Source: Bolinopsis microptera (lineage: Eukaryota; Ctenophora; Tentaculata; Lobata; Bolinopsidae). From it: a stretch of 64,000 bases of DNA. The notes beneath the pieces are model-generated. The model saw only the letters and a list, made by a program, of their open reading frames with translations. It did not search any database and had not been told where the DNA came from. Shown here in pieces: positions 158 through 63,124 of this stretch. Position 1 is the stretch's first letter, and each line of letters begins with the position of its first letter. The stretch is from the NCBI RefSeq assembly GCF_026151205.1, contig NC_087078.1, positions 11,418,175 through 11,482,174 of the forward strand, given 5' to 3'. Made by a program: the position numbers and the translations under genes.

Positions 158-313
158 AAGTCCATCATCATAATAATCTTTACCGTATTCATCAGAAAAA
201 CAAGCCAAAGGTCATAAAATCTGCAAATGATTTAAGAGACTACAGAGCAATAACCTTAGAAGCGAACAGTCTTAGGATGCTTTTAGTGAGCGATCCTAAT
301 GCCACCGAATCTG
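158..313 (+). CDS. Module A, exon A1: start of an IDE-like M16 peptidase domain (partial gene)
   Basis: The exon reads KSANDLRDYRAITLE then LRMLLVSDPNATES, the canonical opening of the first M16 domain in insulin-degrading enzyme and nardilysin (K-S-x-N-D-x-R-x-Y-R, then the strand before DPxxxxSAA). The likely acceptor is ACAACAG at 151-157, preceded by a CTAAC branch-point-like motif; the donor is GTAAGA at 314. The intron is phase 1, and joining to 4767 restores TESA-CAAAVAVG. There is no in-frame ATG in the exon, so the start codon and any membrane anchor should lie upstream, outside the window. The family assignment is firm; the exact 5' edge of the exon is inferred. Confidence 0.8.
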
Positions 314-668
314 GTAAGAAAGTTAACATTAAGGAGCTCATATTAAATCTCGTGTTCTAACTGCTTGACTGATTTATCGCTTCTTAATACTTCTCTAAAT
401 AAGAATTTGCTGTGAAAGTTCTAACTTTCGTACACTATCAAACTTACTATTGCTCACTCGTATTGACTTACACTGTATAGTCAGGGACGAAACGGAATCT
501 CGTTAGCTTTTCGTGTTAAAAGCGATTTCTCAACGGTTATCAACTCTCTAGATGATTCTTAAAACATTTGGACTTCATTGCATTTTTGAAATAAATGCAA
601 TGAGGGCGTTTTCGGCCACACCCTTTTTCAGGGTTTCGCGGTCACTCGAATTTTTGTATATCAGCTCA

Positions 669-975
669 GGAAGGTCTAAAAGACTATTCTGATACACCAA
701 AATGTGCCTAATAGCCACATTTATATACAACTTATGAAGCGACATATACTTTAAAATGCTTCGTTTCGGAATTATGGCCGAAAAACGGTTTTTGGCTTGA
801 CGCAGTTCATAATTTCCGTGATTTTTGGCATTTCCGCCTAGGAAGGTCGTAGAAACTATTCTGATATACTAAAATGTACATAATGGCCACATTTATGTAC
901 AACTTATGAAGCAACATATACCCTAAAAGGCTTACTTTCGGAAATGTGGCTGAAAAACGAATTTTTGTCGAGCGA
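669..975 (+). repeat. Internal direct repeat of the fold-back arm (2 diverged units)
   Basis: Units at about 669-806 and 842-975 share GGAAGGTC, a CTATTCTGATA segment, GCCACATTTAT, ACAACTTATGAAGC and a GAAAAACG block, with roughly 80 percent identity by eye. The reverse-complement arm carries the same pair at about 3830-4130. Subterminal direct repeats of this kind are often transposase-binding sites in DNA transposons; that role is inference. Confidence 0.6.
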
Positions 976-3065
976 ACAAGACAGTATTCACAAATGCAAA
1001 TGGGCTATTGGACTGTTAACTAAAAAGGTCTTAAAGAAGACTCATGAGGAACATAGCATTTGTCACAAGATGTAAGATGACTCACTTTGTGTCCAGAAAC
1101 ACTCACAAAAATTGTAGAATAATCTACTTTATTGGGCATCTCTCTTAATGGGCCAGGACAGCAGCATATTTGTGTCTTACGAAAGGGCAATTTTTCAAAA
1201 TGACGGTTTCTTTAGTAAAGGTCAAAGTAAAGGTCAAAGGGTCAGTTGCTAACAGCAAATTGTTTGCAATTGCCGACTCATGCACATCATATACTCAAAA
1301 ACGTTCACTTTAGGAGTGATTAGTAAATAAGTTTAACTATACTGCATGATTTGTGAAAACTCCAACAATTTTTCATTGGCACCAATTTAGCCAAAATGTA
1401 ATGACCAAAATTCAACTTTTAATTTATTCATTCCATAAAACCGTATTGTTGCTTGACCGCTGACCAGTACCCCACTTTATAATTATAATTGACTTCACTG
1501 CCTCGACCAATATTGGTCTGTAATCCCTGGATTGAGATCTGTTGGCTGCTGTTTAATTTAGCTCATTTACCATTTAAATAGTAATACCGCAGTGGTTTGG
1601 TTCGCATAGATTTTCCCATCGTATGATAATGTGTGTCATTCCCTCGTTTTTTAATCAAGTGGTTACTAGCTAGCTCTTTTGTTATTACAGCTGCCTCGAG
1701 ATCTTATCTAGGGCACTAATGCATTAGTACTAGAACACTAGAACTGTAATTCTAGAACTTCAGATTAAGATTACTTGACTGAATGGCAGGGTTCGAGATT
1801 CGACTCTAAAACTCTCAGTTTAGGAGTGATTAGTAGATGCATGATGTGCGAAAACTCCAACTAGACAAGGATCATGCTTAATCAAAGTGTTCCTCGACTT
1901 GAACTTAAGTATCGTAAGCCCAAACTGGAGTTTGGGCCACTGAATCGAATACAACCTGATATTAATTTTAGGATTTCGGGAAATTCATTCAGATTTTTAT
2001 TCTTTGGTTTTTCAATTGTGCTACGAATCCGAGTTTGAGTTGATAACACCGAATTTCCTGTTTGACTCTCAAAGAGAGGAACCAAGGCGTAGGTTCCTCT
2101 TTTTGGCTCTGAGATCCAACTTTAAGATCGGACTTCGGAGATCATTGCGTCGGAGATCATGTAAGTGTAACATCAGTAGTCAGTACCGGTGATCAGACTT
2201 TTTTGCTTGATATTGGACCTATAAATCTAATGATATATTCGAAACAGCACGGGATTTAACCAAGGTTAATTTAGATAAGATATACCAGCTTTCGGGGTTA
2301 CAAGACCCCACGAAAGGCAGGCAGAGCATCCTAAATCCTCATGCTATCCTCACGTTGACCATCTTGGTCCATACCCCAGCCTCTCGTTAGAAAACAGCTA
2401 CTAGGCCCGATATCCGTCCCTTGTCCCGTAGTACTAGTGCCCTGTAAGTAAGAGATCGTTCAGATTTTGGTCATTTAGACCCCCTCCCCGCTCTAAAATC
2501 CACTTTAGCACTTTACCCAAAGCTGGAAAAATTTCACATGTGAAACCTAAATAGCTAAATCAGCATCTCGAGACCTTCTATTATATAAACCCCGTGATCC
2601 TACTATAAGCTTATAACTTATAAGGCATTGCATGCCGAAATTAAGATCCACCTCAACTGGTGATATGAACCTGGTATGTTACCTGAATGCCCTCAGTCAA
2701 ATCTCGAACCCTGCTAATGCTATTCTGCCAAGTAACCTTAATATGAGGTTCTAGAAATACAGTTCTAATGTTCTTAGTTAGTGCCCATGCCCCAGATAAG
2801 ATCTCGAGGCAGCTGTAATAACAGAAGAACTAGCCAGTCACCACTTGATTAAAAAACGAGGGAATGACACGCATTATCATACAATGGGAAAATCTATGCG
2901 ACAAAAAAAGAATATGGGGTCATTCTGAAGTGAGAACCAAACCACTGCGGTATTATAGGAAATTAACTAAATTAAACTGCAGCCAACAGATCTCAATCCA
3001 GGGATTACAGATCAATATTGGTCGAGGCACTTAAAGTGGGGTACTGGTCAGCTGTCAAGCAACAA

Positions 3066-3425
3066 TCTTGCCCGGATCCAGTGCCGATTTATTTTCGGTG
3101 CGGTATTCTTGGTACATATATCATGGTTTCATGGCATGAATATAAATAAAAAGTTTGAAATTGAATTTGGGTCAACAACGTTAATGTGGCTCTAGCTATG
3201 TGTTGGTTCAGCCGAATTAATTATTATGTTTAATCAAGTTTATTTTTCTCGTTAGTTGTCATCCGGCTAAACATTAAGCAACTTATATTGCAGTACCATT
3301 CATCAATTTGTATATCAAAATATGTCATTGTAATTTTGCATGGCTGAAATGTAACGCTTGATTTATATATACATGTATATAATGATTAATTGAATTTTCA
3401 AATAAAATAAAAAAACACATTTTAT
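3066..3425 (+). repeat. Dispersed repeat nested in the right fold-back arm
   Basis: This block of about 360 bp interrupts the right arm; the matching place in the left arm (about 1392-1441) holds only about 50 unrelated bp. Its middle (about 3178-3350) closely matches 31081-31265: AACGTTAATGTGGCTC, a TATGTTTTGGTTCAG/TGTGTTGGTTCAGC block, GTTAGTTGTCATCCGGC and TTTTGCATGGCTGA occur in the same order. It is therefore an interspersed repeat that inserted after, or together with, the fold-back element. No coding capacity was seen. Confidence 0.65.
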
Positions 3426-4390
3426 TTAAATTGGTGCCAAGGAAAAATTGTTGGGGTTGTCACAAATCATGTAGTAGTTATTTACTAATGACTCCTAAAG
3501 TGAGCGTTTTTGAGTATATGATGTACATGAGTCGGCAATTGCGAACAATTTGCTGTTAGCAGCCGATCCTTTGACCTTAAGAAACCGTAATTTTGAAAAA
3601 TTGCCCTTTCGTAAGACACAAATATGCTGCTGTCCTGGCCCATTAAAGCATTAAGAGAGATGCCCAATAAAGTAGATCATTCTCCAATTTTTGTAGGTGT
3701 TTCTGGACACAAAGTGAGTCATCTTACATCTTGTGACAAATGCTATGTTCCCCATGAATCTTCTTTAAGACCTTTTTAGTTAACAGTCCAATAGCCCATT
3801 TGTGAATACTGTCTTGTTCGCTCGGCAAAAATTCGTTTTTCAGCCACATTTCCGAAAGTAAGCCTTTTAGGGTATATGTTGCTTCATAAGTTGTATATAA
3901 ATGTGGCCATTATGTACATTTTAGTGTATCAGAATAGTCTCTGCGACCTTCCTAGGCGAAAATGCCAAAAATCACGGAAAATATGAACTGCGTCAAGCCA
4001 AAAACCGTTTTTCGGCCATATTTCCGAAACGAAGCATTTTAAGGTATATGTTGCTTCATAAGTTGTATATAAATGTGGCTATTAGGCACATTTTGGTGTA
4101 TCGGAATAGTCTTTAAAACCTTCCTGGGCTGAAATACAAAAATTCGATTGACCGCGAAACCCTGAAAAGGGGTGTGGCCGAAAACGCCCTCATTGCATTT
4201 ATTTCAAAAATGCAATGAAGTCCAAATGTTTTAAGAATCATCTAGAGAGGTGATAACCGTTGAGAAATCGCTTTTAACACGAAAAGCTAACGAGATAGCC
4301 TTTTAGAACGGTTGGGATCCGACTAGTAATTGTTATCAATGAAAGAATGCAAATGATCATATATGAGAAATAATTTGCCTTGGTTTCAAA

Positions 4391-4750
4391 CCCCAAACAT
4401 GAATAATGAGCTCCAAACATGAATGATGAGCCTCAAACATGAATGATGAGCCTCAAACATGAATGATGAGCCCCAAACATGAATGATGAGCCTCAAACAT
4501 GAATGATGAGCCCCAAACATGAATGATGAGCCTCAAACATGAATGATGAGCCCCAAACATGAATGATGAGCCTCAAACATGAATGATGAGCCTCAAACAT
4601 GAATGATGAGCCTCAAACATGAATGATGAGCCCCAAACATGAATGATGAGCCTCAAACATGAATGATGAGCCCCAAACATGAATGATGAGCCTCAAACAT
4701 GAATGATGAGCCTCAAACATGAATGATGAGCCTCAAACATGAATAATGAA
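4391..4750 (+). repeat. 20-bp minisatellite, exactly 18 units, abutting exon A2
   Basis: Unit CCYCAAACATGAATGATGAG repeats 18 times without length change (4391-4750). The first and last units share the variant GAATAATGA. The fourth position alternates between C and T in a non-random order (CCTC/CCCC), suggesting expansion by multi-unit blocks. The unit length is not a multiple of 3 and contains stops, so the array is not coding. It ends only 16 bp before the inferred 3' splice site of exon A2 (AG at 4765-4766), and each unit ends in AG. Confidence 0.95.
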
Positions 4751-4766
4751 CCCAGCATCTCCTCAG

Positions 4767-4910
4767 CATGTGCGGCTGCTGTAGCAGTTGGTAGTTTCGC
4801 TGAACCAGACGACCTTGGAGGACTGGCTCACTTTCTAGAACACATGTTGTTCATGGGATCTGGCAAGTACCCTGACGAGAACCATTTTGAGACGATCGTT
4901 CAAACAGACG
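4767..4910 (+). CDS. Module A, exon A2: M16 zinc-binding HFLEH exon
   Basis: The translation CAAAVAVGSF, then LGGLAHFLEHMLFMGSGKYP, carries the inverted zinc motif HxxEH typical of M16 peptidases; the two histidines bind zinc and the glutamate is the general base. The acceptor is CCTCAG ending at 4766 and the donor is GTAAGA at 4911. Phase 1 on both sides joins it in frame to 158-313 and to 5055-5193. The 3' splice site lies directly against the edge of the 20-bp minisatellite. All catalytic residues are intact. Confidence 0.88.
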
Positions 4911-5054
4911 GTAAGAAATTAGAAGATGATTAAAATTTTACATGTGTCAGATCAATTAAATGGAAATTATTCAACCAAGAACAATAAATACGAAAGGAAA
5001 GATTTTAAAATGAGCACGGATTATGAATACTTAACGATCACAGCTTACTTTTAG

Positions 5055-5193
5055 GTAATGGGTACACCAATGCTTACACCTCGGATGAGGTCACGGATTA
5101 CTACTTTTCTACTCGCTTCAAGTTTCATGATATTATGGATGTCTTCGCACAGTTCTTTATAAGTCCACTATTGGATAGGGACTCAATTATAAG
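5055..5193 (+). CDS. Module A, exon A3: M16 domain 1 continuation
   Basis: It encodes GNGYTNAYTSDEVTDYYFST followed by a block ending MDVFAQFFISPLLDRDSIIR. These are the M16 landmarks 'GGxxNAxTxxxxTxYYF' and 'LDxFAQFFxxPLxxxxxxxRE'. The acceptor is TTTTAG ending at 5054 and the donor is GTTTGT at 5194 (phase 2). The reading frame is intact. Confidence 0.87.
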
Positions 5194-5229
5194 GTTTGTG
5201 AATTACAACTTTATTTATGCATTGTATAT

Positions 5230-5385
5230 ATAGATAGACTAACCCCCCTACAGCTAATATAGAGCGTCGGCACAGAGTGGCTTAGGGTTACTGAAAAGGA
5301 GATAAGCACCTCAGGCCATCCCAACGTTCGGGAGAGACCTGTCCTTGTATCTTGTTGTATTTGTATATATATATATATATATTGG
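5230..5385 (+). other. Possible 3' end of a degraded non-LTR element with (TA)n tail
   Basis: In the intron between A3 and A4, a locally GC-richer block (about 5255-5345) contains GAGATAAGCACCTCAGGCC and an ATCCCAACGTTCGGGAGAG-like stretch, and runs into a TATATATATA tract at about 5364-5382. This resembles the tail of a 5'-truncated LINE, but no protein homology could be established from so short a piece. Confidence 0.25.
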
Positions 5386-5649
5386 ATTAAATATGTGTTT
5401 ACTAAAATTGAATCATTTTTTGTGCTTTAGTCTAAAACCTTTTGCTATACTCTTCATTTCTTTGATCTTGTTTTCTTTGATCTTCTCAATAAAATTCCAT
5501 TTTATGAACCCATTCATATAATTAAATTAAATTATTAAATCGAATTCATATATTTAAATACATTCATTCATACGGTTAAATATCTTTAATTTCAGATTTA
5601 AAAATTAAATAATTTCAGATTTAAAAATTAAATATGATTCCTTTTGCAG

Positions 5650-5757
5650 AGAAGTTTCGGCAGTAAACAGCGAATGGCAGAGAGAGTTAAGTTCTGATGC
5701 CTGGACTTCATGGGATATCATGAGGGTGCTCTCCAATGTAAAACATCCTTTCCACAC
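5650..5757 (+). CDS. Module A, exon A4: third zinc ligand, ends at the shared phase-2 boundary
   Basis: Joined to A3 it reads R-EVSAVNSEWQRELSSDAW, then NVKHPFHT. 'REVxAVxSE' carries the distal zinc-binding glutamate of M16 enzymes (E189 in human IDE), and KHPF is the usual motif before the (K)FxTGN segment. The acceptor is TTTTGCAG ending at 5649; the donor GTGAGA begins at 5758 in phase 2. The continuation FxTG was not found nearby. The next recognised exon with that sequence and the right phase is at 49180. Confidence 0.85.
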
Positions 5758-15213: not shown

Positions 15214-15219
15214 TATAAA
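15214..15219 (+). promoter_or_regulatory. TATA box candidate of module B
   Basis: TATAAA lies about 140 bp upstream of the module B ATG in CGGCTTTATAAACTAC. The aligned place in copy 2 (about 17641-17650) reads CTTAATAAAC, so the TATA core is lost there. Position and motif suit a core promoter; no transcription evidence is available. Confidence 0.4.
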
Positions 15220-15356
15220 CTACATTAATTAGTAATCTGTGTTTGCACTGATCGTTACTGTATGACAGGTATTCTCAGGGAATGACAGCAAGTTAACCGC
15301 ATCAGAGTTACAGTGTAGTTCCGGTGGAGTCTTGTTTCTCGATGAGCTAGGTTCGG

Positions 15357-28551: not shown

Positions 28552-28554
28552 TAT

Positions 28555-30180: not shown

Positions 30181-30189
30181 GATAAGGCT

Positions 30190-38760: not shown

Positions 38761-38765
38761 TCACC

Positions 38766-46805: not shown

Positions 46806-46814
46806 ATGAAATGA
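46806..46814 (+). promoter_or_regulatory. Two-codon upstream ORF overlapping the module E start codon
   Basis: ATG-AAA-TGA (46806-46814) overlaps the module E ATG at 46811 by four bases in a different frame. A minimal uORF in this position could restrain initiation or favour reinitiation. The sequence is clear; the effect is inferred. Confidence 0.5.
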
Positions 46815-47802: not shown

Positions 47803-50800
47803 GTTAGTAAAACCTAAATTAAAATTGTCTATCCTAATGTCTATCTTGCTTACCCTTAGTGGGTAGGCTTCTTGGATATTGCCCCCCTTATAGAAGAAGG
47901 CTCACCAAACCTTCTCTCCTATAATATAATTTGCCTAACCCGAGCCTTCTTTCTTTCTTTAATTTTAAATTATAGTACATACAATTAATGTTTGGGTATA
48001 AGAATAGATCCAGGGCACTGGCACGATAATAATATTCTTTAACATTCATAATTGATATTTAAAGTACTCAGAGTGGAAAGTTTTAATCATTCAGACTAGC
48101 AGGGGGCGGAGGTTATTGTTTTTAAGACCCCAAATATACCTTTAAAGTCTAAACTCTGCATATCTTATGTGGTACCAAAGAACGCTAGTTACTAATTTAC
48201 CTGGGAAGCCCCTCACGAGTAACTGGGCTAATTCACGTCATTCAGCATAACAGTAACACATCTGCAGCTCTCAGGGAGAAACAGTTCTGAAGAAATACTT
48301 CTGAAGAATCCATGATGATATAGTTACAGTTGCCCACAGTCCAACCCACATATCACTCGACATCCGCCAACCATGATAACCTATTAACTTGAGTGCAACA
48401 ACTACTTTCAATATGCCGGGAACAACAATTTTATTATCAGGACAAGCTTGTTAAACCGCGGCAATGTTCCATAAACGGGTCTTGAAACTTGTTAGCAGAG
48501 TCGAGAGAACATTAATACCTGGTTATCGCCTGGCCTGCCTCATCAACCAGCTTGCGTCAGCACACTTATAATTTTCGCCTGACTATCCCTCCCGCGTATA
48601 CTAATATTAACCGCTAAATTCCCGCTAAATTCCCACTAAATTTGTCCACTCCGTGCGTCGTGCTGTGGTTAATGCGACAATTTTCCTCCCTCTTAGTTAG
48701 AAATATGATATATGAGATCCCGGCAATAATCCAGCAACGCAGAGACGTCATTGTTCTCAGACTATTTATTATTAGCTGACAAGCAATGAAATTTGGCAAA
48801 TAGCTATTGTCGTGGAGGTAGACTTCTGTCAGTAAGCGGCTGGTGCTGGGGCTGTCTCTTAATGGAGACAGGATTAACATCTTGTTTCTGGGAGCAAAAT
48901 TAGGAGCAGTAATATTGTGACTTGTTAGACGTATTGTCACTATGTTATTAGTGGGTCTCTCGTTAACGCAATTAAATTTGCTTTGATAACTTAGGTATCG
49001 GGCATTGTGCTGCACGTAGAAGGTCATTGGAAATTTGGTAAATTTGGGCAACGGGTTCCTGGTAATATTATATTTTATTTAGGGATGTCTGGAACTGAAT
49101 ATTTCGGGCAACAATCTTTGTAACAACCAATTCAGGGGGTCAAACCGATTGAATTGTTATTAATACCCGTTCTCTTCAGGTTTTCAACAGGAAGTATCTC
49201 AACTCTGAACAGGACAGACATCCAGGACAGATTGTGGGACTTTTACGACCGTTACTATAGCGCTAACTTGGTAAGTAACCATAGCAACTACAGCAGGTTT
49301 CCTAGAAACCAACATATGATCTTAAAATCATTATACTTATGTTGATGGTACAAGTCTGTAGGTTTATTTACTTTTTAAACTGGAGACTGCTGGTTATATA
49401 TCCAAGAGACTATTCGGTATGGCCCAGTTTCTCCGAGACTAAAACTTGGCTCTACATCTGACTGATCCAGTCTTGGCGTTTAAACTTAAGCGAACTTTGT
49501 GAAGTTAATGTTTTAAAGTTGACGGTGTTGAAAGTAGCGAGTTAAGGTGAAGTGGGAATCTGGAGTATTTACAACGGGGGTGGCCACTATCAAGGGACAA
49601 AAAAGGACAAAAAACATTGTGGCCACCCCCCTTTTACAACGTGCTTCCTAGACCTATAGACTTGTGAAGGCAAGTCAGATACTTCACGGTCAAAATCACA
49701 GCGTTGGTTCAATACGTGGTCCCATTTCTCACCAACTTTGAATGAGCTAATTATAAATATTTCTGGGGATAATTTGTTTTCTGTACCAGTTTTAGTAATG
49801 TGATGGTTTGAACTGCAGTTTGTTAGCTGGAGTTAGCGTTTTCCCACACATCACCATTACTGCTGTCATAAATCAAACGCAACGTTTAACGTCGTTGATG
49901 AGGTTCTGTAATTCCGATTACTCTGTGTTGAGAAGTCGTGGATTCGAGGTTTAATTCCTTGTCAAGGTGTGCTGGAAATGTAAAAATAGTTCGTGAAAAC
50001 GTTTAGAAAAAAATAGTGAGTGCACAAAATGAAGGAAAAGTATGTAAAAAATGTGTTTGTCTTTCAGATAACAGTTGCGATAATTGGTAATGAGACTTTG
50101 GATACCCTCCAGGAATGGGCTGAAGAAATCTTTACTGCTATCCCTAACAAAGAAAAAACAAAACCAGGTGATTTTTCAAAACAAGACTTTCTTTTTTTGC
50201 GATATTTCAACATATTTTGAATTGTTGCGAAAGTGAAGCGATCGGTTTGTTAGATTTGCTATGTTAAGTAAGCAAACTTTATATGACTTCAAAGTAACAG
50301 CTTTTTATGAGTATATGACATTCAAAGATATTTTTCAGTTTCTCAGCAAAACTTACCGTTGCTACGCATTTGGCGGCCACATTTTGATTGTTTTATCAAA
50401 TACCTAAAGCAAGTTTCTATAAGGTGTAAATTTGCAAAACATTGACATTTTAAAGAATATTTTATTAGATTACTATATTTGTAATAAGCATCATGCAACA
50501 AATAGTGTAATCTAATTATTTACCCCCTGCATGAGACATATGTCCGAGCCGGAGAGTCTCTCCAAAATTTGACAAAATCGCCAATATCTCGGTTTACTAT
50601 TTGATCGGGCTTCCCCAGAAAATTTATATTTCACCAACATTCTTCCGAGACAACACCTACAAGATCTCTCCCTAACTAAACTTTTGCCAAAATTTACATA
50701 AATTCTTATAATTTTTTTGAGATTTAAGCTTCCAAATCAACCTCAAACTAAGAATTATAATTCTAATAAGAGACACTGAACCTACAACTTTCTGAAACTC

Positions 50801-53800
50801 AACATTCAACTTATTTTCAGTGTTTAACCAGCTTCCATTCCCTCCTGGTGACAAGAGGTACATCTCTCGGGCCATCTACTATCAACCCAAATCAGACAAG
50901 GATAGCATCAAACTTATATTCCCTATTAATATTTCTGACGTGAGTATTAAGTATTACTTATAGTAAAAAAATTGTCGTCATACATTAATAATTGTTAAGC
51001 ACAGAGCTAAGATAGCTCCTGAATGTACAATGATTTTACCTTTCTCCCACTATGAAGTCAATAGTGTTGATTGTTAAATTTTGAGAAAAATAAGCATCGA
51101 ACTTATTAATGTATATCTGACGTAAGGAGGCTTCGTATTCCTTAAAGTTCTGTTATCATTCTGTTGCAAGCTTGGTGATAACATTTACTGAGCACAGCTA
51201 TGATAGCTCCTGAACATATTATGATTTCTTTTCTTCTTTTCCATGAAGTGTTGATGTTTAAATCGTAAATGTAACCCTTACTAAGGTACACTATTTCAGA
51301 TTTCCTAAACTTATGTTATCATTCTAATACAAACTTGAAAATAACAGCTATGATAGCTCCTGAACATATTATGATTTCTCCTCGCCACTACCCTGAAGGG
51401 AGGAAGTGTTGATGGTTAAATCGGAAGAACTATTCACGTACACTAGCCTCGACCTATATATAGCGCTAATCCTATATATAACTCTAATCTCGATAAAAAA
51501 CCCTCGCTTTTAGTTATCAATGTGTCAGCATCCTAAACCGATCATAACCCAGCCCTTCACAAACACTGTTTCAATAACCTAACTAACACTGTTTTAGTAA
51601 CCTAACTAACACTGTTTCAATAACCTAACTAACGCTGTTTTAGTAACCTAACTAACACTGTTTCAATAACCTAACTAACACTGTTTTAGTAACCTAACTA
51701 ACACTGTTTCAATAACCTAACTAACACTGTTTTAGTAACCTAACTAACACTGTTTCAATAACCTAACTAACACTATTTCAGAACCCTGACTAACACTGTT
51801 TCAGTACCCTAACCTCAGCTACCTAACCTACCTGATGGGTTACGAAGGTAAAGGTTCCCTGTACCAGTACCTCTCAACCCGGGGCTACGTCACCTCACTT
51901 ATGTCCGCTATCTCCACCGAAGCTCAGAACTTCGTCCTGGTCAGCGTGTCCTGCGATCTAACCGAAAAAGGTACGCCTCTGAAACTTGTGTTTTGGGCTC
52001 TCTAAAATCGTATTGTGGGCTCTGTAAATCCGTATAACAGTTGTCGAGGATTCTAGTAAAAGCCATGACTCAAGACCCACTTATGAGATGACATATTGTT
52101 GACACTTTTTAGATCATTTTCTGTCACTGGTCGTGTCATAGGTTGACCTTAATTGTTAGCTGCCAGGAGAGCCTTGCTAGCATCATACTATGCAGACAAG
52201 CGCAGACTAGCTGATATTGCAGACTAGCTGGACAATGCAGACTAGCTGATATAATAGACTAGTTGAAAATGAAGACTAGATGACATTGCAGGCTAGCTGA
52301 TCATGCAGACTAACTGATGATAATATTTCAGGATTAACCAAGCCTAAGGATATTGTGCGGGCCTTGTTCCAGTTTGTGAAGAGGGTGAAAGCAAATGGGG
52401 TTAATGAACAGCTTTGGAAGGAAAATAAGCAGATTGATGAACTTAAGTTCAAGTTTAAGGAGAAGGAGGATCCAGCTACCTATGCTAGGTTTGTTAAAAC
52501 ACTCGAATATATATCGAAGGGTTAGATATTAATCACAACTTTTTCTGCATTTTATTACATCTTTCGATCAGTGATACGTATTGACCGCAAGAGATCAAGT
52601 ACATTGATTTCCAGCAGTCAGATTTTTAACAACTTACTGTTTTACTATTAATAAAGATACAAAGACTCAGGCCAGACACTTAGTTGCTGTTGTTGAGATT
52701 CAATCAGCAATTGTTTAAATATTTTACCCGTCGCCCATAACTGTAACAAGACAAATATTTGTCGAATGTCGAGGGATAAATGTCCTGCTCTGCCTTATAA
52801 AGCGAATATTGTGAGATGAAAGTTGTGCACTCCTCCTTATTAAGCATGTTATAAGCAGGGCACTTTCCCAAACTACAGGGAGGGATCAGTCTCCTCCTCT
52901 CCCCCTCTCCCCCTCTCCCCCTCTCCTCCTCTTCTCCTCTCCTCCTCGACTTATCACCACCTCCCCTCCTTTAGTGAGTCCGGTCTGATTTATTACTTAA
53001 TAACTCCCTCGTGCTACCTCAGTCTCCCTCGTGTGTCAGAGGGAGGTACACAGTGTAGCTGTCTTGTGTTGATCGCGATACAAATACTATCTTAGACCAC
53101 TTATCCATGTGTGCTCCACTACTCCGTTCTAAAGAAAATGGTAAATGAGATGGGTATGTTTTGGCTATGAATTCAGAATTGGGAAGATTGGATAGAGAAT
53201 ACGACAATAGTGACGCATTCTCTATCGCTATTTTCACTTTTTTATCTGTTAGTTAAAATTTTACTGGACGGCATAAGGGTGTTGAAATCCTAAAGTAGAT
53301 TAACGAATTATGCCTTTATTAACTTATTACGATGCTATAAACATAACCTTCGCTCTAAGGAGGAGGGCGGAATGTTGGTATATCCATTCCACTGTATGTT
53401 AGCTACATTCCAGTCGGCCGAGATATCAGATAGGTAACTCCTGGTAGATGTCCGGAAGAATTAAGATTTAATTGTCAAGAAGAGGGTAAAAATAAGGTTT
53501 TTAAACTGACACATAATTTTCTGGGAACTGATTTGGCATAAGCATTTCTGTGCAGAAATATGTTGTTCATAGTCCCAGCAATTTTCAATTCTCCCCTAAA
53601 ATATCTCGTGATGGTCACACCACTTTAAAACCCTTATTCGCCTGCCATAATGTGACCATGCCTGCCATAATGTGACCATGGCGGTCATTTTGCACACCCT
53701 ACTAGGCTCCTGAGCGCATTCTAACGGCAAAAACAAATCTTTCAAGTTGTTATTAGGGCGCCAGGATAATATATGCTCTAGCTACTAGTACTTGTGCCCA

Positions 53801-56800
53801 TCAGATCCACCATTACAACTCTTTGGGGTGGTGACTAATGCCTGGGACTATGGAAAACACATTCCTGCACAGAAATGCTAAATCATTTCCCAGAAGGTTC
53901 GATATTCATGCTTAATGTCCCTAACTACATTATCGATGTGATGTTTAGGCTTAACGAGGATATAGTTTGACAGTGTAACTGTGTAAGTAGCATCAAACCT
54001 GGTTTGCAGATTGGAACAAGCTTTGATCCATAGGATGGATCTTGAGCTGTGGAAGTTAGTTTCTGAAAACAATAACGGAACGCTGGAAGTTCAAGCTAAC
54101 ACCGATACAAAGTGACCCGAAACAGAAGCGGTATTTTGCTCAAAAAGTCGGCTTACCCAGTTTAGGATTTTAAACTGGAGTGACACCTGTGCTTTTGAAC
54201 TTTGAACTTTTGAAGTTTAGATAATCAAAGAAGGGCAGCGTCGAATATCTTTCGATAACTAGGTTTTTCGAAACCCCAACTTCGATATTTATTCTTACAA
54301 CTATTAGTCATAGTAAATTACCAGCTTTTTGATATCACAACCACGCCCACTACCGTCTAACATCACTTGTAACCACCATTTCTCTTCAGCACGATATCAG
54401 CCCACATGGCTAGAGTTACCGACCCTCGAGACTTCCTCGACCCCCCTTCCAGACGGATCTACAATCAGTCGTTGGAGGAGAGGATCATGGCCCACATCAC
54501 CCCTGATAACTTCAACATGTACATTAGTTCTCTCAAATTGTCCACTGAGATGGCTAATAAGTACGGTCCTCAGCTGACCCAGGTGAGCCTAGCTTCTTCC
54601 TTTAATATCAACTCTTAATTAGTTTTAGAGGGTAGAAAATTAACATTGAAAACAGACGCAACGTATAGCTGCGGTAAAGTTTGCAAGTAGTGCGTAATAG
54701 TTGTGCGGTAAATTTGGAGGAAAAATTTGCAGCCTTTAGGTACTCTCAGGCTGGATTTCTAGAATTCTACAATTACTCTCATAGAAACTTTTACAATTAG
54801 ATGGGTAGGATGACTGGGCTTAGTTGAGCTGGCGATGAGCATAATTGAGACAGGGTATGCAATAATGTAATATTACAACATTAGATTCCTACACTGTGTG
54901 TGTACAAGCTAAAATGCCTGCAAATTATATTATCTAATTAATGTTACTTAATTGACTCTATTTCAATCTGTCGACGGATTGTAATCTTTTGTCATTGTAC
55001 ACAGCAGTACAAACTACAAAGTGAACAAATCTGACAGAACGCACATCGGCCAATGGTGCGAGAAAATGTGGTATTAGGTCAATTGTGCGATTCTGCACCC
55101 ACCGCACTTATATTAGGACGCAATGAAACTACCGGACCACGATGTATGGGGACTTGCCACCCCATGGCAACATTAAAATATATCAAGTTGATAATCAACT
55201 CTGTTACATCGTTTCCTTCGTTAAAACTCCGTTACAAAATGAACTGGGATCTGGGATATGTTGCGTCTGATTGAAAATGAAGGCGAAGTTTTCTTCTTTG
55301 TTCGATCTTACTCGGGCTCATCATGTAGCTATATGGCCGTAATTAAGTTGTCAAAAAGACGAGACCTACGATTTCTAAACCCCTTTGTTTTCTTTGCTCT
55401 GCTTACTAGGAGTCATCACCATCGCCATTCTGGTACTCTTACATAATTACTATCGTCGGCTTTGAGACAGCCATTTCTCAGCTTTTTGTTTTGTAAATTT
55501 TATGATGTTACCATTATGATTTATGACCTTATGAAATGACCTTTACTTTTGAAGGTATGACCTTATTACTCCGTTAGTGCAATACTTATCTACGTAATAT
55601 TTGTTCAATAAGTAAGATAAAATTCTTCGTTCCCTCAATACTTATATTGGAAGAAGTGTATGTATGGTAGAGAAGTTTCTCGAAAATAAAATGTAAAAGT
55701 ATTTAGACCCAGGAAAAACTTGCTCGCGTAAAGCTTCAAAAATAACTCAGATACCTAAGGTTTCTGCTCGATTTATGGTTTCCTGCATTCGATAAAAATT
55801 AGAGGCATGTTTTGTTCCTTTAATGATAATAAGGAAGGTGTTACTTATCTGAGTACAACTTTTGTCTTTCCATTCTCACGGACACAAAACGTCCGCAACA
55901 ATATAATAATCAAACATTGACAGTTGACACCCGTCTCCTCGAACAACTCCATAATACCCGTATTACTAGTCCACTCCTTATATGGGCATGACGTGACTAG
56001 TCCGCTCCTTATATGGGCATCACGGGGTTGCTCGTCCATTACTATTAGCTCATAACTAATTCCTCTCGCAGAAAGAGACATGGTACAGCACGCCGTACGA
56101 AAACCTCCAGATAGACGAAGCGGATATTACCAACTGGGAGACGGTGGAACTGAACGAGGATTTGTATCTTCCTGAGACTAACCCCTTTATACCTGATGAT
56201 TTTAATATAAAAGAGTACGAGGGTAAAGCTTTGCCTGTGACTGTTAACGCCACTGAAGGTAGGAGAATGTGGATAATATGCACGTACAAAAAGTTCAGGA
56301 AATATCCTGTGGTAATTGATGAGAGGCATGATTCATATCATAGATCACCGTTGATAATTTTAATAATCTATAAAGTATTCCAACAGCAAAGTTTTAGTTA
56401 ATGAACCTTAAACAACCTTAAACCAGCTGATAATTGCTGGTATAAGTAGGGCACTTATAACTCTGCTATAAATAGCATGATAGTTCACGGCCAGTTAACA
56501 ATCTCCTACTACAGTGTCTGATATGACAGTCTGGTGGTATCAGGATAAAGAGTTTAACCAGCCCAAGCTCTACATGGGCTGTAGGATACAACCCAAACCT
56601 GCTACTCCTTCAGTTAAGAACGGCCTGTTATCTGAGATGCTCTCTAGTTAGTACTAATTATTTTTTGGAAAACGAAATTAGATATATACAGAATAGTATT
56701 ACAGGTTATATATAATGAATATCATCATTGTCAAAAATAAAAACCAGTCCATGGGACTGAAAAAATTAATTAACTTTCGATTCGAAAGAGTTAAATTAGT

Positions 56801-59800
56801 TAGTACTAATTATTAACTTATAAATATCTCCGGGATTTCGACGCGGGATCATATTATCACTCAGCCCGGCCCGCTGTTAGATAAACATCTCAAGGTGATA
56901 TCATCCCGCCCCGGAAATTTGTATAAACCCGGCCCGCTTTTTAGTCGTAACTGATGTTTATCATTCAATTCTCCGACTTACAATAATCAATGATACTGCT
57001 GATTAGAACTCGATAATAGTAGAACAGTTAGACGCGCGATCACGTGGGCGCGTCACGTGCGTACCACGTGCCACCAATAGCATACGCCGAGTCTATACCA
57101 CGTGACACGAAAGCGCACCACGTGATATGAAACATCGTAACCGTCCACTTCTTTTACACGCAAATTCCTGGGAACGTTGCCAAAGCAGCTAATTCTTGGA
57201 ATTTCTCCAACGCGTGGCGTGAGAAGTTGGCGACTAGCCAGCTACCCTTGTCCGTGCCCTAAAAATAGTATTGTTTTGCTTGCTCTCCTTCCAGCTCTTG
57301 TTCCTGCTAACGTTCAAGCTATTGCTCCACTATGACAGATCGGTTTGACATTCAGATTGATGAACTGCTTTCCAATCGTGTTCCGGACAGTACAGTTAGA
57401 GTCAACAACTGGGCTCTAAACAAATTTAATTCTTGGCTTCAGTCATCCAGATTTGCTCGTGACTTCAATGACTTTGACAAATAGAAATGAAAATATTACT
57501 AAAATCAGACCCGTATTCCGAAATAAAAATTATTTTATCACTCTCTTCTAAAGTATAAATCCCTTGTCGAAATCGCCGGAGATAATTATAATCCATAAAC
57601 ACTTCACGCTCAGGGCTAAATAAATGTAATCCCTCAGCTGGCGCTTCGGGATTACATATTAACACAAAACTCGTGCGCTGCGCGCACTCGTATGTGTTTA
57701 TCAGATCATCCCGCTAGCGCGGGATGATCTGTTATATAAACCCTTTGCGTGGCGGGTTTATGTTATTATAAATTTGCTCCTTCAGAAATGTTTATCATTT
57801 CTTAAATCCAAACATTATTTTTGAATCACCCTATACTTCTTTGTATATACATTTGAGACTGTTACAGAAAATCTATGGTATCTTTGGACTGGATTAGAAT
57901 TAAAATTTTCTGACAAAATGAATTTTAAAGCCGGATTTGTTTGGTTTATGGATAGATGCATTAATTATGATTCACCATTCGCCTTCTCTTCGAAATATTC
58001 TGTCTATACATAATTGAAGAACGTAATCTAAAATAGATAATTGCCAGATCAGGTCTCTAAACGCTACTTTATCAGGTACCTACCTGCGTGAGACCTCTGA
58101 ATCTCTCTACCCCGCTGTATCAGTTGACTATGATATAGGTTTTCTTTTTGATGACTTCTGGATCATGACCCTCTCCGGGTTCTCCGACGCTGAAAAGGTA
58201 ACTTTCGTTTGTGAGGATTAAATTTGATAACATTTCTCTTTTTAATAAAAACATTTACTGGACAGATCGAAGAAAACTTACTTTTCTTCCATGCCAATTA
58301 TTTAGTATCTCTTATCATCCATTGCTTAAAATAAGAAGAGCGCTTTTATTGTAAGCCGACCCCCAGGTACTGCAAGCATTCTGCGATTGTCTCCAATCTT
58401 ATAGTCTCTAAGACTCTAAGAGTAGTATATTTACAATGGACATTTCGAATGTCCCTCCAGTCGATCATAATTGCCGTCCTCTGCTGTGCTAGACAATGGA
58501 CAATGTGACCTCCTTTAATAACAGTGCTGTATCAGTGTGTATCTGTGTTAACCGTATGAAATTGCGGGAATTTCGGGACATTATAACTGTACCACTACCA
58601 TTATAGTGAATTAAGTTAGTCCTATTATTTTATTATGAGTGGATAATAGGACGAGAGTAATTGACTTGTTAAATCACTAGTTAATAGCCTCATTTATTAA
58701 TGACCTGTTATCACCAATAACTGCAAGGAGGATTACAATGTTGTCGATTAATATAAAATACTGAAATATCTTCGTAGAGACTTGTAGAGATGTAGCCCGG
58801 TCGATCATAATTGCCGTGTTCTGCTGTGTTAGAATCAAGAATTGGGTATTAGCACGATTAGGTGATTCGTGAACAATTAAAGCCATTTGACATGTGTCTA
58901 TGGATACTAAAAATGTGGTGTTACTGGCACTCAGGCACTGCAAAGTCTCGAACAAATTGTTACTTTCTCTCAAACCTCTACTTGTTGGAAGGTTCGTCAA
59001 ATAGTATTCTGGAATTCGAAGCGTGCGTATCATTTCAAGATTTTTAAAACAATTTTAGAACTGAAGGTCTTCAGCAGCTCGATCATCAAAGTGGGAATTG
59101 CCTTTAGTTAATTCCTTTCAAGTGACCAATTTTTTGTAAAAACTGTTTACAGTCGGTTCGTAAACACAGGCATCAAGCAAAAAATTTATATGGATTAACG
59201 GAAAGAACTTTAAATATAATCTTAGTCTGAGTATGTGTCAAACTCTAGAATGAATTGTAAAATAGTGTCTAAATTTCCAAGTCTTCAGCCTCTATCAGAA
59301 TGTTTAACATGTGAAATCGTTCCAGGGGTACAGGTTTACATACCAAGCAATTTATTTCATTCGCAGATCGCCTGATGATGTGTATTCAGAATAAATGGAC
59401 TATAGTTTCCATAGTTTCCTACCTACATTAATCGTATTTGAACCTATTGAGAAGTTTAGAAGTATGCTTCTTCATGGTCATCATGCAATCTGCGGACCAC
59501 CTCCTTGACTGCAAACAAAATGTGTCAAACAAATGCATGAACATCCAGAAAATTTAGTACAGAAAAATAGGTTGAATCCATGCTTGTTCTCGCAGATCGC
59601 TGGTAAAACCTAATTGCAATGTTAAGGCCATCTTTCTCAACGTTTTTAAAAACTAATTTCGGTCAAATAGTTTGCTTTCAGTTCGTGATGAGAATTGAGT
59701 GGTTATAAATCTATAACCCAGTGCATTCTGAATAGCAATAATAATTAAATTTTATGCACAATTGTAATCTTAAATCTTTCAAGTTTCACCCCTTTGCAAC

Positions 59801-62800
59801 AATTGAGCTAATATGGTAAATCATTGTTGGACAGTCTTCATCGAGTGATCATCTAAAGATTGAGTCTTGAGTCTTGAGAGCAAGTGTGATAATAGCACCT
59901 ACATGAAGCTTATTACAGCAGCTCCCAATTGTATCAGAATTATACGAAATCAGCCCTGTGCCCACTGTAAATTAAAGGATTCTAAGGCCCGGCCGCACGG
60001 ACAACTTTAAGGTTTTGAAAACTTATAGTTGTCGGTACGGACAGGTCTAAATTGTGAGGATGTCTTACAATGCAGGTAAACAGTATTCAAACTTTCAAAG
60101 GGGAGTTTTAAATCTTTTAAAATCTTCTAAACTTTCATGTCTTCTAAAACTAAAAGTGGTGATTTTTGGGAAAAAAGCTTTATATGCATCGGGGTCTAAT
60201 ACAGTAAAAACTTAACAGTCTACATTTTATATGGATTATAGCGAAACGAACGAACTAAAAGTTTAAAAAGTCTGAGTAGGTGTCAATCTTCTTATATCTG
60301 CATCTTTTGTACAGAATAATGTCTAAATCTCACAAATCTACTGCTAGATTCAGAATGTTTTGGCATGGAATATGCATAGGAGAAGCCCAAAAGTAAAAGC
60401 GACTTTTTAAACATTCATCTCGTTTATGTTTTTTGTTCTTCAGAAAACAAAAGGAAGGCTTAGATGACACTCCTCTGTAATTCCAACTCTATTCTACAAT
60501 TCATTTGCTTTAGAAAGTAGATAGACTCAAAGGTCCTTTCAGACTTGTTTAGTATGAATTATAATTTATAGCAGTTTTCCAAGGACGAACATTAAAGTGC
60601 GGTTACTACAAAGTTTTCAAGCCGTAATTATGATTAGTAAGGACTAAGGATCAATATGTGCTAACTTCTTTGTTGACCTAATAATTAATCGCCCTTTATT
60701 ACTCAGGTGAAAAAAGTAATAGAGAGCGGCCTGGACTCGTTGTTCCAACTTGATTTTGATCAAAACGAGGAGCACTTTAACGCGACCATCCGGGAACCAA
60801 TCAGGAAGGAATATCTGAACGTTAAGAACTGGATGCCTGCTCAGCTCAGTTTACGATATGCCAGGTATGACTCTGCCAGTGAATACACCTTTTCAACCTT
60901 TTTAACCCTTTTTTAACACAGTTTATCCCATTTCAAATTTTATCCGAGATTTACAGTTCGGCTTCTGCCGAATATTTTTAACGTGGCAACATTTTAAATG
61001 TCGCAGGAAATACGATTATGTGTATATACAAAAGCTTAATATTTATTTATTTTTGCTGTTCTGCAAAGTAAATTAACTGACGCAACCTCACCAGGATGAT
61101 TCAAGACCAGTACATATTCTCCTACTCAGAAAACTTGGCGGAATTAGACTCCCTCGCGCAATCAGACATCAGGAACCTGCGAGACGACTTCCTAAAAGAT
61201 ATCTCTATTGACTGCTCGATTATGGGAAATGTTATTGAACAGCAGTCAGCAGAATATTCTGAGATACTGAAGAACAAGCTTGTTACGGGTGCGGGTTAGA
61301 TCCTATTCTCTTCAAATTAAAATAGATCCGGATCATAACTTCCTGCTTTTTAGTGGGAGTATTCTTATCAAATTTATGAACATTATGAGAGATCCTGTCA
61401 CATCTTATCATTGAACCATCGTTAACAATTGTATGTTTACTTAAGAAAGCCCTTTGTTCGCTGGTCTCAGTTTCTTTACCCAATTAGAACGCAGTATAAT
61501 CTTAACATTCTCCTGAACGTCATTTAACCACCAGGGGCTGGCTCAACGATTGTGAAGGAAAACAGGCTGGACGCCTTCGTTCACCCAATCTTCAAACTAC
61601 CTCAAAACAAGACCCTGGTAGTCAGACAGAAGGTTGAGAACCCGGAGGAACCCAACTCTGGAGTTCTGTCTCTGTTCCAGGTGAGATTTATTGTTCTGAA
61701 CTTATACTTGTAGTGAGCCACGGGCTATAAATCTCCCGCCTTTTATTATCCAATAATACAAGGTCTATCTGATGTATGGGACCAATATTAGTCCCAATTT
61801 AACTTAATTTAATTATAATTAAGTGCCCCTCCTGGCTAAGTGCACCCTAATTACTATTTCATTCATGCTAATAATATAAATTCTCAGATTGGACCTGTTG
61901 AGTCAAATGGTCCTTACACGGACAGGTTGCCCTACACTAGATTCGTTCTGGCTACCTTACTCGGACTAATGATGAGAGAACCTTGTTTCAACTATCTCAG
62001 GACCCAACAACAGTTGGGATATGTTGCCAGCTGTTTTGAGGAGGAGTTTAAGAATATCATGGTGTTCAACATCTTGGTTCAGGGATCTAGAGAGGACGCT
62101 GGGGCTTACGTTATCGCTGAGCAGTAAGTTATTATCTTATTCTATTCATAAAGAACAATATGTTCTTATCTTATTCTATTCATAAAGAACAGTATGTTCT
62201 TATCTTATTTTATTCATAAAGAACAGTATGTTCTTATCTTATTCTATTCATAAAGAACAGTATGTTCTTATCTTATTCTATTCATAAAGAACAGTATGTT
62301 CTTATCTTGTTCCATTCATTAAGAACCGTATGTGATGATATTGTAACACTGAGAGTTAAGACATGAATCACCAGTCGACTAATGATTGCTTTTATTTGCC
62401 CTCTGCTTAACATCCCGTTTTACATACAGAAATAAATAACGAGGTAATCCATATTGTTATTTTATATCGCTTAATTGTGTTCCATTATTTCAGGCACGAT
62501 ATTTTCGTTGATCTTCAATACAACAAATTCCTTGAACAGAGCAAATCTGATGCAGGTTTACAGCTGTGGGCTGACATTAAGGTCGCTCTAAGAAAACAAA
62601 TCGAGGAAAAACCGATTAGTTTATCAGGTATTTTATAACGTCATACATTTTTATTGAAAACTGATATAGATTTATTCACTGTTTCCATCTCCTATACACT
62701 GGATTACATGTATGTTTAAACTTATCCGTACTTGGTGGAAACTCCCCCAAGAATGCGCTAAACAAGGTACTAAGCACTCTGCTGGTATTTGGCTAAGTAT

Positions 62801-63124
62801 CTGACTGAACAACCGACATAGTCAACACTGACACCCAACCTCTGTGGACAGACGTCAATACATATTTCATTGTACCATTATAATAACCATCAGAAACTGT
62901 TCCAAATATTTCAACTCTAGCTTTTATAACTTTATAAGATGATTAATTTTCATTTCTCTTCAGAAAAGAACACCCAGTTCAACAGAGAGATTTTCTCACC
63001 GACACGAGACTTTGTTCGGAGAGAAAAGAAAGTGGCAGCTCTTGAGGAGATCACCATGGACGATTTTATTGAGTTTTATAAGCGGTATTTGATAGGAGAA
63101 AACCGACGGAAGATTTCATCACAG
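46811..63124 (+). CDS. M16 (IDE/nardilysin-like) gene with pseudo-catalytic first exon; exon 1 plus 15 downstream exons, 3' end open
   Basis: Sixteen exons join in frame: 46811-47802, 49180-49270, 50068-50167, 50821-50939, 51805-51970, 52332-52488, 54390-54582, 56072-56258, 56515-56646, 58076-58197, 60707-60864, 61095-61294, 61535-61680, 61888-62123, 62494-62627 and 62964-63124. All phases match. Together they give about 1,098 residues. They form a type II membrane M16 protein: cytosolic tail, one helix, a degenerate first M16 domain without HxxEH, the middle M16_M region (LPETNPFIPDDF) and a C-terminal M16 pair with the LRTQQQLGY substrate-contact motif. A short final exon is expected but was not found. 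Exons 2-16 may also serve as the common part for modules A-D. Confidence 0.8.
47803..49179 (+). other. Intron 1 after module E
   Basis: About 1.4 kb with no repeat array or gene recognised; a minus-strand open frame at 48614-49051 has no recognisable similarity. It ends with the strong acceptor TCTCTTCAG. Confidence 0.6.
49180..49270 (+). CDS. Exon 2: first exon of the shared C-terminal part (FSTG...YYSANL)
   Basis: Reads FSTGSISTLNRTDI, then LWDFYDRYYSANL, the universal M16 stretch 'FxTGNxxTL...LxxFHxxYYSANLM' that directly follows KHPF. It accepts phase 2 (a single G completes the codon), matching the phase-2 donors of modules A, B, C, D and E. The completed residue would be T, G, G, R or K respectively. 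The acceptor is TTCAG at 49179; the donor GTAAGT at 49271 is phase 0. Confidence 0.88.
49576..49630. repeat. Perfect 12-bp-stem hairpin in intron 2
   Basis: GGGGGTGGCCAC (49576-49587) and GTGGCCACCCCC (49619-49630) are exact reverse complements around a purine-rich loop containing GGACAAAAAAGGACAAAAAA. Confidence 0.8.
50068..50167 (+). CDS. Exon 3: end of first M16 domain
   Basis: ITVAIIGNETLDTLQEWAEE followed by IFTAIPNK matches the family strand-helix 'xVxGxESLDxLxxxVxxxFxxIxNK'. The acceptor is TTTCAG at 50067; the donor GTGATT at 50168 is phase 1. Confidence 0.87.
50821..50939 (+). CDS. Exon 4: start of second M16 domain
   Basis: PFPPGDKRYISRAIYYQPKS, then IKLIFPINISD. This is the 'P...F...xxxxxxxPIKDxxxLxLxFPIPD' segment of IDE. 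The acceptor is TTTTCAG at 50820; the donor GTGAGT at 50940 is phase 0. Confidence 0.85.
51560..51804 (+). repeat. 23-bp minisatellite made of duplicated 3' splice sites
   Basis: Each 23-bp unit contains CCTAACTAAC (branch-point-like CTAAC/CTAAT core) and ends CACTGTTTCAA or CACTGTTTTAG. The two endings alternate, giving a 46-bp higher-order unit; AG ends fall at 51597, 51643, 51689, 51735 and 51781, and the true acceptor TGTTTCAG ends at 51804. The array is thus a series of branch point plus AG units running straight into exon 5. Splicing at a decoy in the exon's frame (for example 51735) would enter TAA at once. Confidence 0.93.
51805..51970 (+). CDS. Exon 5: second M16 domain, GYEGKGSL motif
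   Basis: YPNLSYLTYLMGYEGKGSLY, then STRGYVTSL and VSVSCDLTEK. The conserved family motif is 'YLxHLIGHEGxGSLLxxLKxKGW', here MGYEGKGSL. Phase 0 acceptor at 51804; phase 1 donor GTACGC at 51971. Confidence 0.87.
52192..52328 (+). repeat. 17-20-bp degenerate tandem repeat ending at the exon 6 acceptor
   Basis: About seven units of GCAGACTAGCTGATATT and variants, the last being GCAGACTAACTGATGATAAT followed by ATTTCAG. The units carry both a branch-point-like CTAGCTGAT/CTAACTGAT and an AG, so this is a second array of splice-site-like units directly against an exon. Confidence 0.8.
52332..52488 (+). CDS. Exon 6: helical segment of second M16 domain
   Basis: GLTKPKDIVRALFQFVKRVK, then WKENKQIDELKFKFKEKEDP and ATYA. 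It corresponds to 'GLxxxxDIxxxxFxYIxxLRxxGxxxWxxxExxxxxxxxFRFxEKxxPxxYxx' in IDE. The acceptor ends at 52331; the donor GTTTGT at 52489 is phase 2. Confidence 0.87.
52880..52950 (+). repeat. (CCCTCTCC)n pyrimidine microsatellite in intron 6
   Basis: Imperfect CTCCTCTCCCC repeats; non-coding. Confidence 0.9.
54390..54582 (+). CDS. Exon 7: second domain, ...RRIYNQSLEERI...
   Basis: STISAHMARVTDPRDFLDPP, then IMAHITPDNFNMYISS. It matches the part of IDE that runs from 'VSxLAxxMQxYPxExxLxxxYLxxxFdxxLI' to 'LxPxNxxIxLxSxxF'. Acceptor TCTTCAG at 54389; phase 0 donor GTGAGC at 54583. Confidence 0.85.
56072..56258 (+). CDS. Exon 8: M16_M middle-domain exon (LPETNPFIPDDF)
   Basis: KETWYSTPYENLQIDE, then LNEDLYLPETNPFIPDDFNI. 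'EpWYGTxYxxxxI' and 'LHLPxPNxFIPTDFxL' are hallmarks of the middle domain of IDE and nardilysin. Acceptor CTCGCAG at 56071; donor GTAGGA at 56259, phase 1. Confidence 0.9.
56515..56646 (+). CDS. Exon 9: middle domain, VWWYQDKEFNQPKLYMG
   Basis: VSDMTVWWYQDKEFNQPKLY, then SVKNGLLSEMLSS. Family counterpart: 'xxLWxKQDDxFxxPKxxxxxxxxSP...xxxxxxxLYxxL'. The donor is GTTAGT at 56647 (phase 1), the same variant used by module E. Confidence 0.85.
57041..57124. promoter_or_regulatory. Cluster of five CACGTG E-boxes
   Basis: CACGTG occurs at 57041, 57054, 57065, 57099 and 57119, with a CCAAT at about 57074. This density within 84 bp is far above chance. The cluster lies about 210 bp upstream of the ATG at 57332, so it may be the promoter of that ORF or of the mobile element. 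Binding by USF/MITF/MYC-class bHLH factors is family knowledge; function here is inferred. Confidence 0.55.
57332..57484 (+). pseudogene. 50-residue ORF resembling the N-terminus of Crypton/KIAA1958-like tyrosine recombinases
   Basis: ATG to TAG, 50 residues. It contains ELLSNRVPDSTVRVNNWAL, then FNSWLQSSRFARDFNDFDK. The pattern (short acidic start, VPxSTxxxxxWAxxxFxxW, then DFxxxDK) resembles the SAM-like N-terminal domain of Crypton-derived proteins such as KIAA1958. The catalytic domain is missing and hairpins follow, so it is a fragment or deletion derivative. The assignment is from pattern memory and uncertain. Confidence 0.4.
57623..57761. repeat. Four consecutive hairpins in intron 9
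   Basis: Stems: AATGTAATCCC / GGGATTACAT (57623-57657), AACACAAAACTCGTGCGC / GCGCACTCGTATGTGTT (57661-57699), a perfect 30-bp palindrome with CAGATCATCCCGC arms (57702-57731), and ATAAACCC / GGGTTTAT (57736-57761). All are GC-rich with TAGC or similar tiny loops, like the 25.8-kb cluster. Confidence 0.85.
58076..58197 (+). CDS. Exon 10: start of C-terminal M16 half
   Basis: STYLRETSESLYPAVSVDYD, then FWIMTLSGFSDAEK, matching 'YxAxLAGLxYxxxxxxxGxxLxVxGYSDKL'. The AG at 58075 and a phase-1 start fit exon 9. Donor GTAACT at 58198, phase 0. Confidence 0.86.
58198..60706 (+). other. Intron 10 (2.5 kb)
   Basis: No gene seen. A direct repeat CGATCATAATTGCCGT plus TCTGCTGTG occurs at about 58462 and 58801. 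Ends with the acceptor ACTCAG. Confidence 0.6.
60707..60864 (+). CDS. Exon 11: C-terminal half, helical linker
   Basis: VKKVIESGLDSLFQLDFDQN, then FNATIREPIRKEYLNVKNWM and PAQLSLRYAR, matching 'LLxxVxxxMxxFxxDxxRFxxIKExxxRxLxNxxxxxPYxxAxYxxxxxL'. Donor GTATGA at 60865, phase 2. Confidence 0.85.
61095..61294 (+). CDS. Exon 12: C-terminal half, 'GNV/GNI' segment
   Basis: RMIQDQYIFSYSENLAELDS, then LRDDFLKDISIDCSIMGNVI and QQSAEYSEIL, matching the family 'ALxxLTLxDLxxFxxxLLxxLxxExLxxGNxxxxxAxxxxxxI'. Two possible phase-1 donors lie six bases apart (GT at 61289 and GTTAGA at 61295), so the exon may end at 61288 or 61294. Confidence 0.84.
61535..61680 (+). CDS. Exon 13: start of last M16 domain
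   Basis: GAGSTIVKENRLDAFVHPIF, then LVVRQKVENPEEPNSGVLSL, corresponding to 'R.VxLPxxxxxVxxxxxxxxxxENSxVxxYxQ'. Acceptor CCACCAG at 61534; donor GTGAGA at 61681, phase 0. Confidence 0.85.
61888..62123 (+). CDS. Exon 14: LRTQQQLGYVAS substrate-contact exon
   Basis: RFVLATLLGLMMREPCFNYL, then RTQQQLGYVASC. In human IDE the matching LRTKEQLGY supplies R824 and Y831, which hold the substrate at the zinc site of the other half. These residues are conserved here, so the constant half looks built for an active partner. Acceptor TTCTCAG at 61887; donor GTAAGT at 62124, phase 2. Confidence 0.9.
62128..62333 (+). repeat. 34-bp tandem repeat, 6 units, starting at the exon 14 donor
   Basis: Units of TTCTTATCTTATTCTATTCA followed by TAAAGAACAGTATG begin four bases after the GTAAGT donor starts. 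AAGAAC-AGTAT-GTTCTT at each junction is a small palindrome. The last unit is diverged. Confidence 0.95.
62494..62627 (+). CDS. Exon 15: last M16 domain, helical
   Basis: HDIFVDLQYNKFLEQSKSDA, then GLQLWADIKVALRKQIEEKP, corresponding to the family segment preceding 'F...V..L...L..KP..L..E...W..I'. Phase 2 in, phase 1 out (GTATTT at 62628). Confidence 0.83.
62964..63124 (+). CDS. Exon 16: last recognised exon, near the C-terminus
   Basis: EKNTQFNREIFSPTRDFVRR, then KKVAALEEITMDDFIEFYKR and RRKISSQ, matching 'xxxWxxIxxxxYxFDRxxxExxxLxxLTxxDvxxFYxxxxxxxxxxRxxLSVxV'. The donor GTTTGT at 63125 is phase 0. The final strand (LSVQVxG) should lie in one more exon. If unspliced, the frame reads on to a stop at 63313 without family similarity. 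Confidence 0.85.

Follow-up and report, generated by a model that had tools for sequence, protein, structure and literature searches.

The stretch of DNA considered here, 64,000 nucleotides long and referred to as the window, comes from Bolinopsis microptera, a lobate ctenophore, for which isoforms of the gene at this locus, LOC134818889, have been annotated. Five N-terminal modules, designated A through E, are found upstream of a single constant exon set in the window, an arrangement which is confirmed as a real observation. The modules are tandem 5' units, all on the same strand, with an M16 N-domain common to A, B, C, and D, and with E only weakly related. The mapped exons of A, of E, and of the constant part are identical to annotated B. 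microptera proteins. The initial annotation had placed modules A to E where they are found here, each with a phase-2 donor, and those donors were confirmed upon re-reading of the positions. Module A, described then as one block starting at 158, indeed is an M16 module with its donor at 5757, but is resolved by protein P0044 into four exons in the window. All five of the modules claimed are present, but B and C, counted as two modules, are instead one recent tandem duplicate. The features are as follows.

196..5757, + strand: module A, with coding exons 196-313, 4767-4910, 5055-5193, and 5650-5757, zinc motif HFLEH, and donor at 5757; based on an exact spliced match to P0044 (isoform X6), with PF00675 in P0044
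15357..16009, + strand: module B first exon, encoding a tail, a membrane anchor, and an M16 N-domain with HFLEH; donor 16009
17782..18434, + strand: module C first exon, either a recent tandem copy of B or a second haplotype of it; donor 18434
38766..39448, + strand: module D first exon, encoding a tail, a membrane anchor, and an M16 N-domain with HYLEH; donor 39448
46811..47802, + strand: module E first exon, encoding a long tail, a membrane anchor, and an M16-like N-domain lacking HxxEH; donor 47802; based on an exact spliced match to P0046 (isoform X2) and on nine E-type relatives
49180..63124, + strand: constant exons, 15 in the window
49180-49270, 50068-50167, 50821-50939, 51805-51970, 52332-52488, + strand: constant exons 1-5
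54390-54582, 56072-56258, 56515-56646, 58076-58197, 60707-60864, + strand: constant exons 6-10
61095-61288, 61535-61680, 61888-62123, 62494-62627, 62964-63124, + strand: constant exons 11-15

Joins to the constant exons

Module-constant joins were sought using module D plus a rough constant part as query, with the best 120 of 740 matches considered. Five proteins stand out among those 120, at 1145-1647 bits versus 322 for the next. From Bolinopsis, P0044 (isoform X6) and P0045 (X9) consist of A plus the constant part, and P0046 (isoform X2) consists of E plus the constant part. P0047, from Mnemiopsis leidyi, is an A-type module plus constant part, and P0048, a ctenophore-like protein, is a D-type module plus constant part, joined at the same residue. 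The exact mapping of P0044 runs from 5757 to 49180, that is, over an intron of 43,422 bases which crosses B, C, D, and E in cis, while that of P0046 runs from 47802 to 49180. The A and E isoform proteins match the window residue by residue as far as the window extends. Ahead of the four A exons, P0044 possesses 74 residues, membrane anchor included, without an exact match in the window, and the first coding exon or exons of A thus lie to the left of it. A 20-base-unit array is seen at 4291-4830, inside the intron ahead of the module A exon at 4767.

An intron of 43,422 bases, in proteins that are themselves models, could be taken to mean that the A-constant isoform is an annotation artefact, in which one model fuses two genes, a broken A and an intact E. 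This we consider extremely improbable, as the same A-type join is annotated also in Mnemiopsis (P0047), as A keeps its zinc motif and is 74.3% identical to Mnemiopsis, and as the prediction for the fused A-constant protein is a single, confident insulysin fold.

The donors read CCACAC/gtgaga for A, CAACGG/gtgagt for both B and C, TAGTAG/gtaagt for D, and CCCTAA/gttagt for E, with the slash marking the exon end, and the acceptor at 49180 reads cag/GTTTTC, in a phase matching all five phase-2 donors. Fused frames are stop-free to 63124, at 983 residues for B, 983 for C, 993 for D, and 1096 for E. The earlier claim that any module joins the constant series in frame is borne out as far as frames and donors go, these fitting for all five, with annotated Bolinopsis proteins showing the join for A and E only. 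Donors were scored using as training set the 18 other donors of LOC134818889 and were compared with 3708 GT sites in the window, among which B, C, and D fall within the top 0.3%, A within the top 1.2%, and E within the top 6%. Intron positions, though, are inherited by paralogues, and for that reason a shared donor phase by itself is weak evidence; equal phase as proof of shared constant exons was rejected on this ground. What speaks strongly against chance is rather that no second constant set turns up in the window, that isoforms have been annotated, and that relatives have conserved the modules. The frame of D continues open ahead of its ATG, over 38550-38765, and is similar there to the extension at the N-terminus of P0001, such that the true start of D may lie further 5'.

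All 15 constant exons are matched at E<=1 by the constant part of Bolinopsis, by that of Mnemiopsis, and by that of P0048, and with these same queries no second constant set is seen in the window, the best match elsewhere having an E of 4.3. To allow for a second set that had diverged strongly, ten distant M16A proteins served as control queries, and these match 4-8 of the 15 constant exons; outside of those exons they find nothing in the window better than E 0.96, and that with an in-frame stop. Searches with insulin-degrading enzyme (IDE) and with the rough constant part give the same picture of a single set. The initial annotation had recognised just one downstream series, naming separate constant sets in the gaps as what would speak against it, and no such sets were found in the window. 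The last 39 residues of the constant part lie beyond the window and have no match inside of it. Domains PF05193, PF16187, and PF22456 are present in the constant part, in P0044 and P0046 alike. That part is identical between X6 and X2 across 804 residues, while in P0048 it is 52.5% identical to that of Bolinopsis. X9 is two residues longer, with the additional residues falling at junction 61288/61535, where an alternative splice site is likely.

With the window being a fragment of a genome, B, C, and D might alternatively be trans-joined to constant-bearing transcripts, or might serve another constant set outside of the window. We regard this as very improbable: cis-splicing suffices for modules found on one strand upstream of one acceptor, the annotated A join passes over B to E in cis, and a second constant set was not found in the window.

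Module relatives and the zinc site

B and C, rejected as separate module types, lie in a tandem duplicate of recent date, the copies at 14506-16345 and 16922-18781 being 96.5% identical over 1868 columns. Their exons differ at 5 codons, 2 of which change the residue. Comparing 33 module sequences with the window yielded no additional modules outside of A to E, the best matches being glycine runs (E 0.004), followed by matches at E 0.16, with a stop, at 0.17, and weaker.

Relatives were gathered by a search with D (43 matches) and by a B/E profile search (21 matches). Those matches included relatives of the D type (11), the B type (7), and the E type (9), the rest being taken for other M16 proteins. 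In a tree of 55 rows, which includes 22 rows of other M16 and leaves out the truncated P0168, each type lies on one side of a branch: D (13 rows) at 100/100, B (9 rows) at 99/99, E (9 rows) at 100/100, and A (2 rows) at 100/100. The grouping A+B+D reaches 85/88, which is below the tool's starred level. At the junction, a continuing residue compatible with a GT donor is seen in 24/24 of the relatives scored, 24 of the 27 being scorable. P0006 and P0168 end too early, and P0004 escaped the pattern but agrees on visual inspection. P0002 (D-type) and P0172 (B-type) are both listed with the same longest contig, of 491,929 bases, and D and B modules therefore probably are linked in another species as well. 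P0011 and P0179 have names formatted like those of Pleurobrachia gene models, which presumably is what they are. The module types seem to predate the divergence of the ctenophores sampled. The E-type P0168 departs from the E pattern after ECLCC, possibly owing to an intron within that relative's E-type exon.

By motif search, A, B, C, and D keep HxxEH along with the downstream glutamate; B, C, and D each match Pfam PF00675 alone, and A does so within P0044. HxxEH is absent from 9/9 of the E-type sequences covering the place, and the E-constant protein consequently is not classed as a protease. The description of all five as 'M16 protease modules' thus stands for A to D but not for E, which lacks HxxEH as well as a Pfam M16 N-domain match; that all of the modules are proteases is ruled out. 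The constant part supplies LRTQQQLGY, recognised by alignment with IDE as the R/Y pair, a motif of M16A peptidases which is described in PMC12731061. With zinc ligands coming from A to D and the R/Y pair from the constant part, the active site would be a composite, one piece of it variable and the other constant. Promoter or splice choice would then probably switch between active and pseudo-protease membrane isoforms.

Upstream of module E, at 45912-46148, there is a 79-residue open frame with no Pfam match. Elsewhere, 27415-28671 is a minisatellite of 33-base units with long open frames on both strands. A scan of the window against Rfam gave 0 matches at gathering scores, and a search of viral contigs with P0048 gave 23 pattern matches, 0 of them confirmed.

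A proposed single gene with exchangeable 5' parts

The best explanation, to which we assign a probability of roughly 0.8, is that of a single ctenophore gene in which several alternative 5' parts share one constant set and in which the E form is a pseudo-protease. Each of A, B, C, D, and E would start its own transcript from its own promoter, and each would encode a cytoplasmic tail and a membrane anchor of its own, along with the beginning of M16 domain 1. Each would then be cis-spliced from its homologous phase-2 donor to the sole acceptor at 49180, as presumed in Bolinopsis for B, C, and D, with the shared exons supplying the remainder of an insulysin-like clamshell. Modules A to D would contribute zinc ligands and the constant part the R/Y pair, giving forms presumably active. 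Choice of E would yield a zinc-less domain 1 and thereby a membrane pseudo-protease on the same C-terminal half, perhaps with a binding or regulatory role.

A number of results weigh against this explanation. Isoforms X2, X6, and X9 are computed gene models, and the single constant set is established within the 64-kb window only. B and C may represent a single exon, present as two haplotypes that the assembly left uncollapsed. No 8-mer is common to the 400 bases upstream of B, D, and E (the mean for random triples is 0.16), and the E donor, at 5.33, scores a little under all 18 training donors. The M16 kinship of E is weak by sequence (hhalign E 0.0049, probability 7%): PF00675 is not matched by E within P0046, and a PDB search with an E-type profile gave five weak matches, none of them an M16 chain, the best at E 0.36. 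The fold model of E is of low confidence near the join (block means of 28-55 over residues 291-350), and its input alignment contained M16 rows. Lastly, no Bolinopsis B-, C-, or D-fusions are present in the best 120 of 740 matches of the join search, though expected at the top.

It is this last result, together with the frames of B, C, and D running at once into a stop when read through their donors, that lends some weight to only A and E using the constant exons. B, C, and D would then be silent partial duplicates, or short membrane-bound half-domains stopping just inside of the intron. We consider this unlikely, as B- and D-type exons have been kept as separate groups with donor-compatible ends, as the B, C, and D donors rank so highly among GT sites, and as P0048 has a D-type module fused to a constant part. 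The UGT1A-like interpretation of the locus proposed in the initial annotation, that of variable first exons with shared constant exons, accordingly is partly supported: A and E are annotated isoforms of one gene, D is backed by P0048 and by conservation, and B and C by anatomy and conservation only.

Known systems and what the locus may mean

A variable-first-exon architecture is in itself of a known kind, as represented by UGT1, UGT2A, GCNT2, protocadherins, and sDscam. Clustered protocadherins, for example, have arrayed 5' variable units with alternative promoters plus splicing, and are adhesion receptors rather than enzymes. The UGT1 (UGT1A), UGT2A, and GCNT2 clusters, called vertebrate-specific in PMC1885805, resemble the present locus in having tandem similar variable first exons (N-terminal domain) and one constant set (C-terminal domain), with the variable exons of GCNT2 also carrying a membrane segment, as do the modules here. 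Those clusters, however, encode glycosyltransferases, whereas here it is a ctenophore M16 peptidase whose catalytic residues come in part from the variable and in part from the constant portion, with A having four exons in the window and with one module zinc-less (PMC1885805). Chelicerate sDscam 5' cassettes (PMC4835542) likewise are arrayed 5' variable units, with alternative promoters plus splicing and found outside of vertebrates, but belong to adhesion receptors, not enzymes.

As a protein, the product is like IDE and other M16A peptidases in domain order, in the zinc motif of A to D, in the R/Y pair, and in predicted fold, but differs from those (PMC12731061) in its N-terminal membrane anchors and exchangeable domain-1 modules. 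The E form is like alpha-MPP and other M16 pseudopeptidases in being a zinc-site-less M16 relative that has been retained in evolution. Alpha-MPP, however, is encoded by a separate gene and is an M16B dimer partner (PMC11266112), while at the present locus the active gene itself would supply the zinc-less form, as a 5' variant.

No account of this locus or of any M16 variable-first-exon cluster was found among the papers listed in searches of one open-licence library, in keeping with the initial annotation's statement that no M16 case of variable first exons was known. What appears to be new is the enzyme family and the phylum, together with an active site split over variable and constant parts, a multi-exon module (A), and a zinc-less module.

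Ctenophores often are placed as sister to all other animals. If the proposed explanation is true, then the variable-first-exon design extends to a protease as well as to ctenophores. With exchangeable and fixed pieces of an active site, and with one of the exchangeable pieces being zinc-less, one locus may alternate between a protease and a pseudo-protease. More speculatively, and somewhat doubtfully, this could be an old ctenophore switch in which start-site choice exchanges tail, anchor, and catalytic part, providing active ectoproteases on the one hand and, on the other, a conserved zinc-less decoy which could pair or compete with them, thereby tuning peptide signals. The same surface protease, that is, may be made by one gene in working as well as in non-working versions.
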